In this document: positions 8,116 to 53,455 of the stretch, piece after piece
Position numbering within the stretch: position 1 is the first letter of the stretch
Layout: the number at the start of each line of letters is the position of its first letter
Assembly (NCBI GenBank): GCA_002010075.1
Contig: MTMG01000016.1
Location: 62,137 to 126,136 of the forward strand
Direction of reading: 5' to 3'
Source: Methanomicrobia archaeon JdFR-19
GTDB taxonomy: Archaea > Halobacteriota > Methanosarcinia > DSM-18856 > Methermicoccaceae
Length of the DNA: 64,000 bases
Notes under the pieces: model-generated
Told to the model about the DNA's origin: nothing
Database searches by the model: none
Seen by the model: only the letters and a program-made list of their open reading frames with translations
Position numbers and translations under genes: made by a program

Positions 8116-9162
8116 TTATTTATCTCCTATCTACGTCCACCATTTGTAAATCTCTTCTCCACTCGTCATCCACGCTTCTTTTTCATGAGAATACTTCAAT
8201 ATCTTTTCATAAAACTTTAACATGTCTCCAAACATGTAGGTATTATGCCAGAGGATAGTGATAACTCCATTGTACCTTTCAACAGTGTCAATAAGTCGCT
8301 TGGTAATTTTCCATGCGTCTCCCACATTTAATTTCATATGCTCAAACAACGTACAGTCCATAATGACCAAAGGAATTTCGAGAATGTCAATCTATTTGTT
8401 TGTATGTAGGTTGAAGGGTTTAAAAGGATGGCACATCCCATTTCTAAATCCGACAGCATCTGCATAACCGAAAGTTGTATCATATTTAAAGCCAGCTTTT
8501 TCCAGAACAATCCAAGTATCTGGAACTTTGAATTTCAAGTAGTGGTTCCTATAACCGATTAATTTTTTACCTAACACCTTTTCCAGCCTTTTCTTCTTCT
8601 CTCTGACATCATCCAAGTTATTGTATGAATTGTGTCCACCATGCAGACCAACTTCCCATCCGTTATCTATTATGTATCCCAACTCGTTATCTAAATCTTC
8701 AACATTGAAATTGAAGTCCAAATCTCCTTCTTCCACTGTTAAGAAATAGAAACTCGACTTTGCACCATATTTCTCTTCAAGTTTCATGATATCTTTAAAA
8801 TTCCATAGATAATTCTATCTTTTTATGTTGCTGAGCAGAATTTTAAAAGCATTCTTGGTTTGACCACACCTCAAACTTCTGATGGCACAGTATATCGTAC
8901 TCGATTTGGAAGGATAGAGGGTATCAATATCGTGAGTCAGACAAACCGCAAATTTCTTGCCTTCTGGATACCCGACTTCTAAGCCGTTCTCCAATAGGAA
9001 TTTTGATACCTCTGGCTCTAAAACATTTTTATGCTTGCTAATACGATATGGGTATCTCTGATATCGATCTAAAATCGTTGGGTTGTACTCCTCTCGTTTC
9101 GTAAATAATTCCCAAAGCTCTTTATTTTGTTTCAACGTTTCAATCATCTGTAATACCTTCAT
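8116..9162 (-). CDS. polysaccharide deacetylase-like enzyme with three in-frame TAG codons
   Basis: Read through TAG codons 116 (8817-8815), 257 (8394-8392) and 344 (8133-8131), the frame gives 348 residues ending at TAA 8118-8116, immediately before the next ATG. All segments fit one NodB-like deacetylase. Metal-site motifs are THDID near residue 86 and HGGHNS near 160, and GYRNHYLKFKVPDTW is the later conserved strand. The ATG at 9162 overlaps the wecB stop (ATGA). Taken as ordinary stops the three TAGs would leave useless pieces, but no frameshift and no TAA/TGA interruption is present, so I treat it as one intact gene with TAG as sense. It probably deacetylates an N-acetyl sugar in this operon. 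Confidence 0.82.
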
Positions 9163-41591: not shown

Positions 41592-42884
41592 TTAAGTACC
41601 TCCAACCAATAGTTTGACAAGGAGGTGAGGCGCCCCATCAGAGACTGGAACACTTTGTCCATCTTTCCCACAGAATCCTGAAAAAAGCTCGAGCTCTGAA
41701 CCGACACACTCAATGTTTTTCAAGGTTTCGAGTGTTGAGCCAGATATAGACACGTCTCTGACAAGTTCTCCAATCTCTCCATCCTTTACAATATATCCAT
41801 ATTCTGCGTTGAAAGCAAACACACCCTCTGCAGGTGATACTTCACCACCTCTTGACCCCTACAAATACAGTCCATTTCCAAGCTCACACAACATTTCGTC
41901 CAGCCCCATATCTCCCTCAACAACAAACGTATTACTCATTCTCACAAGGGGCTTTGATGCACCTTCAGCTCTTGCATTTCCCCCAATCGGCACACTGGAA
42001 AGAATAGACGAGGTCTCTGTTGAGTGAAGGTATCCAACATGTACACCTTCTTTTATCAGTTCATGTCTTGATGAGGGGACACCCTCGTCATCGAATGCAT
42101 ATGAGCCAAAGCCATCGAGTGTGGGGTCGTCTACAACCGTCAGACATTCAGAAGCTATCTTTTTCCCGAGTGTGTCTGATAGGATCGAACGTCCTTCAAG
42201 TACAGAGTCCGCCTCCATCGCATGCCCCACTGCCTCGTGTATGAATACTCCCCCCAGTTGCTGATCGAGTAAAACCCTCATGCTTCCTCCTTTGACTGTG
42301 TGTGCGGTGAGGAGATTCAACGCCCTCGAGGAAGCTTTATCTGCGAGTTCTTGCAGATTCCACTTCTCCACGAGTTCCCACCCCCCAATCATGGCTCTGC
42401 TCTCCTTTGCCATCTGCAAAATGTTCCCACTTCGAGCTATGCATAGTATCGACACACCAATTCTCGGATAATATGAGCTGACTTCAAACTCTTCATTTTG
42501 GTAATGTGTCCAAGTACTCTCTTCAAAATAGGATATCTTTACACTCTTCACATTTTTCACGTCTATTTCTTTTAAAAATCTTATTTTTTCCTCTGTATCT
42601 ATATCTCTTTGGTCGATCTTTGGTTTATAGTATGTATTCTTTGGTCTCTCTTTTGGGTATAAAATTCCATACGGTTTTTGTTCATCTTTACATGTTTCTT
42701 CAATGGTTAGTAGATTCTCCATAGCTTTTCTGTTGTTGCAGTTTATGTGATATCCCCAAAAGCCATTCTTGAATACTCTTGTTATTGTGTTATTGCTCTT
42801 GGAATAGGATATATCATCAACTTTCCCGTTTTCCAAAACTATCCTCAAAGACTCAGTATTCACGTTTCTTGTATCCTGAAACAT
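41592..42884 (-). CDS. TldD/PmbA-family metalloprotease with in-frame TAG
   Basis: Reading TAG codon 342 (41861-41859) as sense gives 430 residues ending at TAA 41594-41592. The zinc-site motif is IHEAVGHAMEADSV. The TAG falls in the highly recognisable stretch GNGLYL-TAG-GSRGGEVSPAEGVFAFNAEYGY, which is continuous in the family (usually a K or V-K before GSRGG). The last 88 residues are needed for the fold, so a real stop here would inactivate it. It follows lonB by nine bases in an operon. It may process peptides or proteins in the cytoplasm. Confidence 0.87.
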
Positions 42885-45950: not shown

Positions 45951-46025
45951 TCATAAGAGAAGTGTATTTATAACACCCCCCATAATTTGGAGTAGAATTT
46001 ATATTTGCAGGTTGAGGAGTCAGAA

Positions 46026-47309
46026 ATGAATGTTGTGATACAACCAGTGGAATGGCTTGAAGGAGAACTCACCCCACCTCCTTCAAAGAGCCACACTCAT
46101 CGGGCAGTGGTGTGTGGCTCCCTCTCAGAATATTGTGAGATAAAGAACGCTCTGGTATCAGAGGACACGAGTGCCACTATGGAAGCTGTAAAGGCACTTG
46201 GAGCCAGCATTCGTGTGGATGCAGGGGGCAACATCGCGATAGAGGGTGTGTGTGGTTCACTTTCCACTCCTGAGGATGTGATAGATGCAAAGAATTCTGG
46301 TACCACCCTTAGATTCATGATATCTCTCTGTTCACTTGCTCCTGGTTTGAGTGTGCTGACTGGTGATAACTCGTTGAGAAAGAGACCCAATGCCCCCCTC
46401 CTCTCTGCAATGGCACAGCTTGGAGCATTGACCTTCTCCACCAAGGGAGATGGTACCGCTCCGATTGTTGTTTTTGGTGGAGATTAGGGTATGAAAGGAG
46501 GGAGTTGTGAGATCGATGGGGGAATTAGCTCCCAGTTCATTTCTGCCCTTCTCATAGCATGTCCCTTGTGTGGCAAGCCATCTAAAATAAAAGTAAAGAA
46601 TCTAAAGTCATCCCCCTATGTGGACATGACGCTTGATATTCTGCAAAGATCTGGCATCGAGGTTCTCATCAAGAACAGCACATATGTTGTCCCTCCCTCT
46701 CAGACATTCAACCTATCCACATATACCGTTCCATCTGATTTCTCATCAGCTTCTTATATCTTAGCAGCTTCGTCTATACTCCCCTCTCGTGTGAGGTTAG
46801 TGGGAATGTTTCCATCTCTTCAAGCGGATGAAAAAATCGTTGATGTATTGAGAGAAATGGGTGCTGATGTTCATTGGGATCGTGAGAAAGGGATAGTTGA
46901 TGTAAAAGGGGGCAATAAGCTTAAAGGTGCAGTTGTGGATGTGTCTCAGTGTCCAGATTTGACACCAACTGTTGCCGCACTGGGTGTGCATGCAGAGGGC
47001 GTTACTGTTGTAGAAAATGCATCCCATGTACGTCTGAAAGAGACAGATAGAATTTAGGCGATGGCTTGTGAATTGTCAAAGATGGGCATCAGATGTGAAC
47101 AAGGGAAGGATTATTTAAAAGTATGGGGAGGAAAACCTAAATGGGCAAAGTTAAATGGGTGGAAAGACCATAGGATAGTGATGGCTCTCTCAGTAGCCTC
47201 TCTCACATGTGGTGCTGAAATTGAAGATGCGGAGGTGGTATCTGTGTCTTATCCATCTTTCTTTGATGACATGAGAAAACTTGGTGCAGACATCAAGGAG
47301 GTCAGATAA
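46026..47309 (+). CDS. aroA: 3-phosphoshikimate 1-carboxyvinyltransferase (EPSP synthase) with two in-frame TAG codons
   Basis: Reading TAG codons 154 (46485-46487) and 344 (47055-47057) as sense gives 427 residues, the normal size. Motifs run in order through all three pieces: PPPSKSHTHRAVV, NSGTTLRFMISL, DNSLRKRPNAPLLSAM, then after the first TAG EIDGGISSQFISALLIACPL, VPSDFSSASYIL, and HVRLKETDRI-TAG-AMACELSKMG, then KDHRIVMALSVA. The enzyme joins PEP to shikimate-3-phosphate for aromatic amino acids. GAGGAG precedes ATG 46026. TAATG overlap with the radical SAM gene supports the end. Confidence 0.93.
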
Positions 47310-51423: not shown

Positions 51424-51714
51424 ATGGATAAGTCCCATGGGATTCGAAGAAAAACAAGATACAAACTTCAAAAACCAAAGAGAAAAAGAGGTTTATCATC
51501 TATAACAAGAGCTTTACAGGAGTTTGAAGTGGGTGATAGAGTCCATATAAAGATAGATCCGAGTGTGCATAAAGGCGCCCCACATCCAAGATTCCATGGG
51601 AGAACGGGAGAAGTAATCGGGCAGAGAGGTAGGGCGTATTTGTTGAAGATTAGGGATGGCAATACGTACAAAACTGTCATATCACTTCCAGAACATTTGA
51701 TTCCACAGAGGTAA
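51424..51714 (+). CDS. rpl21e: 50S ribosomal protein L21e
   Basis: The protein has 96 residues, very basic. It begins [18 protein letters not shown] and contains [19 protein letters not shown] and [19 protein letters not shown], the L21e signature. It is the first gene of a conserved archaeal block with rpoF, DUF655 and ksgA. ATG 51424 follows GGGAGG by seven bases. The stop is TAA. Confidence 0.96.
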
Positions 51715-51717
51715 AGT

Positions 51718-52083
51718 ATGATAGTGAAGAAGATAATCTCCGAGGTACCCCTAACACTTTCAGAAGTCAAGGAGATTCTCAGTGAAATAAAGCAGAGAAG
51801 ATTGTCAGAAGAGGGTGAAGAGGGTACAGAATTGCCTTATGAGTTTAGAAAAGCCCTTACCCATGCAGAAACTTTTGCTCGTCTGAAGTCTGATCAGGCG
51901 AGGGAGATGGTTGAAAGACTTCTTGAACTGGACAAGATGAAGCTTGAGATTGCAATAAGAATAGCTGATCTCCTCCCTAAAAGTAGAGATGAACTCAGAG
52001 CAGTATACGCAAAAGAACGTTTCTCCCTTACCGAAGAGGAACTGGATAAAATACTTGAGATAGTTGCAGAGTATTCTCTTTAA
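51718..52083 (+). CDS. rpoF: DNA-directed RNA polymerase subunit Rpo4 (RpoF/Rpb4)
   Basis: The protein has 121 residues, helical, with SEVPLTLSEVKEILSEIKQR, ELPYEFRKALTHAETFARL and a C-terminal HRDC-like LPKSRDELRAVYAKERFSLT. This is the archaeal Rpb4 subunit, which with Rpo7 forms the RNA polymerase stalk. Position after rpl21e and before the DUF655 gene is the usual archaeal order. The stop is TAA. Confidence 0.9.
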   Translation: MIVKKIISEVPLTLSEVKEILSEIKQRRLSEEGEEGTELPYEFRKALTHAETFARLKSDQAREMVERLLELDKMKLEIAIRIADLLPKSRDELRAVYAKERFSLTEEELDKILEIVAEYSL

Positions 52084-52104: not shown

Positions 52105-52668
52105 ATGGATAAAAAACCTGAGAAGGAGAGTTATGCATGGGTTCTTGATTATCTTCCTTATGGTCATCCGGACGATACCAGACCCATATACCAACGGAAA
52201 CCACTTGTTCAAGCTGTTGGCGAAAAACATTTCACACTCCTTGAGTTGATACCAAAGGAGGGCGTGGTTCCAGAGCCCCATCAAAGAGTCTATATAGGGG
52301 AGGGCGAGAGGGACTTGATAGACCATGTAAAACGTAGAATCAAGTATGATGAGTTGACACATGGAGCTAAGCTTGAGCTACCGCATGTAATTGAGGAGAT
52401 AATTCTTGAGAATGAGGAAAGGTTTGTTGAGTTTTTCAACAAGGCATATTCCATAACACCAAGACTTCACATGCTTGAGCTCCTTCCCGGCATAGGTAAG
52501 AAGTTGATGTGGGCTATTATAGAGGAGAAGAAAAAAGGGGAGTTCAAAAGCTTTGAAGACCTAACATCAAGAGTTCGGGGAGTTTATCAGCCAGAGAAGT
52601 TGATAGCCAAGAGAGTTGAGGAGGAATTGAGAGAGGAAAACATAAAATATAGACTTTTTACACGGTGA
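52105..52668 (+). CDS. DUF655 family protein (putative RNA/DNA-binding)
   Basis: The protein has 187 residues. It begins KESYAWVLDYLPYGHPDDTR, has an OB/S1-like middle (VGEKHFTLLELIPKEGVV, then EPHQRVYIGEGERD) and a helix-hairpin-helix region LHMLELLPGIGKKLMWAI. This is the archaeal DUF655 family, almost always between rpoF and ksgA. A nucleic-acid role is likely but unproven. GGGAGG precedes the ATG. The stop is TGA, one base before ksgA. Confidence 0.92.
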   Translation: MDKKPEKESYAWVLDYLPYGHPDDTRPIYQRKPLVQAVGEKHFTLLELIPKEGVVPEPHQRVYIGEGERDLIDHVKRRIKYDELTHGAKLELPHVIEEIILENEERFVEFFNKAYSITPRLHMLELLPGIGKKLMWAIIEEKKKGEFKSFEDLTSRVRGVYQPEKLIAKRVEEELREENIKYRLFTR

Positions 52669-52669
52669 T

Positions 52670-53455
52670 ATGTTGATTGCTTCTCTTCTCAGAAAGTATG
52701 GGGTCTATATTTCGTCTAAAGACCAGTGTTTTCTTAATGACTCCAAAATTTTAAAGTGGATGGTGGATTATGCAGGGCTGAATGAAGATGATGTGGTGCT
52801 TGAAATTGGTGCAGGTCTTGGCACTCTAACGAGACTGTTGTGTGAAAGGGCAGGAAAGGTATATGCAATAGAAAAAGACCCGAGACTTTTTTAGATTTTA
52901 AAAGTTGAACTGAGAGAATTTGATAATCTTGAACTCATATATGGAGATGCCCTCAAGCTTGAATTACCAGATTTTGATGTTGTTGTGTCCAATCTTCCCT
53001 ATTCGATTTCAACTCCCATCACATTCAAACTTCTCGAAAGGTATTTTGAGAGAGGTATTCTGACGTATCAACTGGAATTTGCAAGAAGGCTTGTTGCAAA
53101 ACCAGGTACAAAGGACTACGGAAGATTGAGTGTTGCAGTTCAGCACTACTGTGATGTGAGGTTAATCAGAAAAATTCCAAGAGGAGCATTCTATCCAAAA
53201 CCATCGGTTGATTCAGGAGTGGTTGAATTGAAAAGAAGACAACACGAAGACGTAGATTAGAGGGTTTTTTCCAGATTTCTCGAATGTGCATTTAGAGAGA
53301 GGAGGAAGAAAATCAAAAATGCAATCTCTCGATGTCCAGAGTTTGCAATGTGTAAAATTCCCGAGGAGTTTGGTGAGAAAAGGGCTGAGGAGCTATCACC
53401 TAAGGACTTTGTCAAACTCTCAAGCATGATATCAGATTCTCTCAACAACAACTGA
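52670..53455 (+). CDS. ksgA: 16S rRNA dimethyladenosine transferase with two in-frame TAG codons
   Basis: Reading TAG codons 75 (52892-52894) and 197 (53258-53260) as sense gives 261 residues, normal for archaeal KsgA/Dim1. Motifs cross all three pieces: [105 protein letters not shown]-like [16 protein letters not shown], then [23 protein letters not shown]. It dimethylates two adenines near the 3' end of 16S rRNA. Conserved synteny with DUF655 supports it as the functional ksgA. It ends in TGA. Confidence 0.93.

Follow-up and report, generated by a model that had tools for sequence, protein, structure and literature searches.

Two conserved in-frame TAG codons, probably read as pyrrolysine, in the ksgA gene of the archaeon JdFR-19

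The ksgA gene of Methanomicrobia archaeon JdFR-19 carries two in-frame TAG codons, at positions 75 and 197, and we consider it very likely that it is nevertheless a working gene in a pyrrolysine-decoding archaeon, that pyrrolysine (Pyl) occupies both positions and that the TAG codons are close to neutral. The gene lies in a stretch of 64,000 nucleotides of contig MTMG01000016.1, which was analysed as a whole and is termed the window.

Results

ksgA is complete apart from two TAG codons

The two TAG codons are the sole interruptions of the ksgA frame, which is closed by TGA (Table 1). The Pfam RrnaAD domain (PF00398) spans residues 18-252 as one continuous match running over both of them (E-value 2.6e-57), and the NCBIfam ksgA equivalog model TIGR00755 gives 252.2 bits against a cut-off of 171, which places the protein within that family. 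The SAM-binding and NLPY motifs (EIGAG, IEKD, GDA and NLPY, the last at residues 108-111) are intact, and an earlier note on this DNA had correctly located codon 75 between motif II and NLPY and codon 197 ahead of the C-terminal domain, in a frame that is otherwise open. The same note had taken the gene to be the orthologue on the basis of the conserved rpl21e-rpoF-DUF655-ksgA order. The Pfam matches of the three neighbours agree with this, as does the presence of a single full-length RrnaAD gene, ksgA itself, in the 1.29-Mb assembly, which rules out a spare copy there; since the assembly is 89.75% complete, an extra TAG-free ksgA may lie outside it. A search for viral relatives found none.

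The read-through protein was modelled by AlphaFold2 with lysine at positions 75 and 197, yielding a mean pLDDT of 93.6, and the closest solved folds were M. jannaschii Dim1 (3fyd/3fyc) and P. horikoshii DIMT1 (8x47), with TM-scores of 0.82-0.89. The product of reading through both TAG codons is thus predicted to be a complete, confidently folded archaeal Dim1/KsgA. It resembles these archaeal enzymes in fold, motifs, length and operon partners and differs from them in the addition of two UAG-encoded residues at variable positions. The 3' end of the organism's own 16S rRNA reads GTAGCCGTAGGGGAATCTGCGGCTGGATCACCTCC (C3:59651) and both helix-45 target adenosines are present. Directly past these adenosines the 16S 3' end (C3:59651-59685) displays a C-to-U change, with GGGGAAUCUGCGG in place of the usual GGGGAACCUGCGG.

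Table 1. Features of the window discussed in the text. Positions are those of the window; G001 is the sister genome.
Feature	Position	Strand	Remarks
Open frame	8116-9162	-	three TAGs (codons 116, 257, 344); no Pfam match
TldD/PmbA metallopeptidase	41592..42884	-	TAG codon 342; PF19289 1.7e-63, residues 200-424, across the TAG
aroA (EPSP synthase)	45987..47309	+	PF00275 5e-103, residues 19-429; TAG codons 167 and 357, both TAG in G001
rpl21e (Ribosomal_L21e)	51424..51714	+	PF01157 1.7e-37
rpoF (RNA_pol_Rpb4)	51718..52083	+	PF03874 5.4e-20
DUF655 gene	52105..52668	+	PF04919 3.3e-73; TGA stop one base ahead of the ksgA ATG
ksgA/dim1, 16S rRNA adenine dimethyltransferase	52670..53455	+	261 codons with TAG as sense; terminal TGA
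TAG codon 75 of ksgA	52892..52894	+	helix 71-80, just past motif II (IEKD); also TAG in G001
TAG codon 197 of ksgA	53258..53260	+	N-terminal end of helix 197-209, which connects to the C-terminal domain; also TAG in G001

Both TAG codons are conserved in a sister genome

A comparison with the ksgA of close relatives, suggested by the earlier note, was carried out with Methanosarcinales archaeon B74_G9 (G001, record QMVI01000020.1), an independently assembled genome of the same genus. The two KsgA proteins are 96% identical, with TAG at both same codons and no indel. Sequencing error is a very unlikely source of the TAG codons because both recur in this separate assembly. Further disabling mutations in relatives, which the note would have held against a functional gene, are absent from the G001 ksgA, where we detected no frameshift and no TAA or TGA.

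Over the whole gene we counted 22 synonymous and 11 nonsynonymous differences (binomial p about 5e-8 against neutrality), corresponding to a pN/pS of about 0.14. Past codon 75 the counts were 12 and 7, respectively (p about 1e-4), while past codon 197 alone the 5 nonsynonymous and 3 synonymous differences are too few data and not significant. These counts indicate that ksgA is under purifying selection, including the stretch past codon 75. With both TAG codons conserved under such selection, the gene very probably yields a product with two UAG-encoded residues, as had been proposed.

TAG behaves as a sense codon across the genome

The sample comprised 460 kb, or 36% of the genome, and 193 kb of it aligned to G001 at 93.5% identity. 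TAG and TGA could not be told apart by a rough tally of 'strong internal' stops, and cross-genome codon-exchange and third-position tests were therefore used instead. Among 61 comparable in-gene TAG codons, 56 were also TAG in G001 and 5 were sense codons (CAG twice, TAT, AAG and GAG), with none facing TAA or TGA. Conversely, all the differing G001 TAG codons (9/9) faced sense codons in the JdFR-19 genome. At true gene ends, TAA and TGA interchanged 10 times between the two genomes. Third positions accounted for 53% of the changes in the 30 codons past an apparent TAG end, versus 27% past TGA and 31% past TAA, the limit of 30 codons having been chosen for this test and separating the TAG class from the other two. 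Downstream of internal TAG codons pN/pS was 0.123 (4012 codons), as compared to 0.101 in TAG-free genes, and over whole extensions after TAA it was uninformative, probably through overlap into neighbouring genes.

A conservative count, omitting TAG codons at positions 2-15 of predicted ORFs (probably upstream of the true starts), yielded 45 internal TAGs in 34 of the 439 genes sampled in this 36% of the genome, and a looser one 117 TAGs in 85 genes, some of them upstream of true starts. When ORFs were called with the standard code, 37 out of 446 ended at TAG and 26 of these remained open for at least 30 codons. Seven TAGs stand 2-4 codons ahead of TAA or TGA and may be former stop codons, each with a reserve stop behind it. 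A TAG 2-4 codons before the final TAA or TGA is found at L087:12351-13445, L091:14919-15503, L091:17837-18514, L092:4320-5186, L093:14595-15440 and L078:3871-4359.

Pfam domains were found to cross TAG codons in ribonucleotide reductase, adenylosuccinate synthetase (purA), EPSP synthase (aroA), dehydroquinate synthase II, a YGR210-like GTPase, an SRP-type GTPase, Trm1, thymidylate kinase (tmk), RNase HII, an amidase, TldD and others. The aroA frame has a further TAG at codon 3, which probably precedes the true start. A Rad50/SMC-like gene (L082:13683-16394) contains internal TAGs at 393, 441 and 601; at one of these three the sister genome has TAT. As judged from the 36% sampled, TAG appears to be a sense codon throughout the genome, which makes ksgA one ordinary case among dozens.

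The genome encodes a complete pyrrolysine system and a canonical-looking release factor

The Pyl set is complete, with pylT(CUA), pylSn, pylSc (298 bits), pylB, pylC and pylD. Downstream of pylT come two separate genes, pylSn and pylSc, constituting a split pyrrolysyl-tRNA synthetase (PylRS; L004:1000-2226, contig C6); pylB-pylC are carried by the same contig and pylD by another. This split matches the PylSn+PylSc class, with PylRS on two genes, to which JdFR-19 is assigned as a relative of Methanosarcinaceae in PMC9499178. TAG codons in the housekeeping genes of this lineage are not a topic of the passages used here. The genome belongs to the same class as Methanosarcinaceae, whose PylRS is fused, whereas PylRS here is split. 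One of three mtmB homologues (L140, L141 and L142; C9 and C14) has a single in-frame TAG, and the two without TAG are perhaps non-Pyl methyltransferases. The host is a methylamine-using archaeon.

We propose that UAG would be decoded as an amino acid genome-wide by tRNA-Pyl(CUA) and the split PylRS, that the ribosome would place pyrrolysine at KsgA residues 75 and 197 and terminate at the final UGA, and that a normal KsgA/Dim1 would then dimethylate both target adenosines in helix 45 of 16S rRNA. Judging by sequence, the enzyme should be active, and the inserted residue is almost certainly pyrrolysine. UAG could also be sense but read as a standard amino acid, glutamine or lysine for instance, through another tRNA or near-cognate read-through. 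TAG does exchange between the genomes with CAG, AAG, GAG and TAT, all of them single-base neighbours, and tRNA-Trp and tRNA-Tyr were not located among the tRNA matches in the 89.75%-complete assembly. The exchange pattern, however, fits single-base mutation and points to no one amino acid. No CTA-anticodon tRNA other than tRNA-Pyl was detected among the 43 ARAGORN-named of 45 Rfam tRNA matches (to the eye, the two unnamed ones resemble intron-bearing serine tRNAs), and tRNA-Pyl is accompanied by all the other Pyl genes listed above and by an mtmB that contains TAG. We consequently regard decoding by a standard amino acid as improbable.

The release factor aRF1 is present in single copy and looks canonical, with its NIKS and YxCxxxF motifs, so that there is no sign of lost UAG recognition and termination at UAG may compete with decoding, lowering the yield of full-length protein. 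For a UAG introduced in M. acetivorans, a read-through of about 20-30% is given in PMC2933860. At this rate per site, two sites would give 4-9% full-length KsgA, unless decoding is far more efficient here.

The TAG codons occupy variable positions of KsgA

The variability of both sites was assessed in an alignment of 57 relatives, with entropy ranked over 252 columns. Site 75 (A/D/E/R/K/H/Y/F/S/T/G in relatives) ranks 8/252, among the most variable 3%, and site 197, mostly Glu (GAG/GAA) and also Pro, Lys, Gln or Val, is moderately variable (rank 102/252). Neither site is among the invariant or near-invariant columns, and neither belongs to a conserved motif. A catalytic role of Pyl in KsgA is unsupported because both sites vary in this manner.

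Many of the relatives' codons at these sites are one base away from TAG (GAG, AAG, TAT and CAG). The TAG codons probably arose by point mutation, for example from GAG at codon 197 and from AAG or GAG at codon 75, at positions tolerating several side chains, and would persist because UAG decoding renders them near-neutral. A single ksgA TAG was found elsewhere (residue 230 of the match) in another Pyl-encoding genome, G005, whose fused pylS is 406 aa long; from its position we infer an independent event. A ksgA match was obtained in 220 members of the class; among the matches listed, those of JdFR-19, G001 and G005 alone contain TAG.

A UAG codon in ksgA might act as a regulatory switch, full-length KsgA being made only when pyrrolysine is abundant (growth on methylamines), which would couple ribosome maturation to the supply of substrate. 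A Pyl system is present and the canonical-looking aRF1 permits the competition that such a switch requires. We hold this to be improbable as well, since TAG codons are spread over unrelated genes, so that any coupling would be global and not ksgA-specific, and since the ksgA sites are variable positions where nothing points to selection for the TAG codons as such. For similar reasons we could not uphold the view of the earlier note that rRNA modification is specifically tied to UAG decoding: TAG appears to be sense genome-wide, many unrelated housekeeping genes carry it, both ksgA sites vary and KsgA is dispensable in three archaea, having been deleted in Haloferax, Sulfolobus and Pyrococcus according to PMC7897474. 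If there is no spare copy, KsgA production would depend on UAG decoding, but in a generic manner that dozens of proteins would share, some of them probably more important than KsgA.

Finally, that ksgA is a pseudogene or a gene being lost, its TAG codons being inactivating mutations, is scarcely credible: the standard code does make them two in-frame stops and archaeal KsgA can be deleted (PMC7897474), but they are common to the sister genome without frameshift or TAA/TGA and with the low pN/pS given above, a conservation and selection on which we reject this reading, and furthermore every motif is intact, a confident KsgA fold is predicted and dozens of further housekeeping genes show the same TAG pattern.

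Discussion

The ksgA TAG codons, which we take to be neutral, have a counterpart in Thg1 (tRNA-His guanylyltransferase) of Methanosarcina acetivorans, for which the 'appearance of pyrrolysine by neutral evolution' was described (Heinemann et al. 2009, as quoted in PMC2933860); neutral TAG acquisition is also discussed for other genes in PMC3639795. Thg1, like KsgA, is a housekeeping enzyme of RNA processing whose gene has an amber codon in frame; this can be translated as Pyl, which in Thg1 is dispensable for activity. Thg1, however, has one TAG in one species, whereas ksgA has two TAGs in two species and belongs to a genome with many TAG-bearing genes. As in Thg1, the ksgA TAG codons are best read as a neutral capture of Pyl. 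Pyl is already known to have entered housekeeping proteins by drift, and ksgA is probably a further case. Kivenson and colleagues (Science, 2025) have reportedly described an archaeal 'Pyl code' in which all TAG codons are pyrrolysine. As in 'Pyl code' archaea, TAG, as judged from the sequence, appears here to be sense genome-wide in many proteins beyond methylamine methyltransferases.

Taken alone, ksgA has minor weight, as one more probably neutral Pyl protein, and the pattern across the genome is weightier. Housekeeping genes with several TAG codons imply that UAG is decoded efficiently through a split PylRS beside a canonical-looking aRF1, and standard-code annotation would be wrong for roughly 8-20% of the genes of this lineage. 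Methylation of helix 45 would provide a clean assay for full-length KsgA with its two UAG-encoded residues. We see an even chance that the reassignment of UAG to pyrrolysine is complete in this lineage, in which case KsgA, Trm1, the SRP GTPase, ribonucleotide reductase, PurA, Tmk and other proteins would obligatorily contain pyrrolysine and the cell would need pyrrolysine synthesis even without methylamine use.
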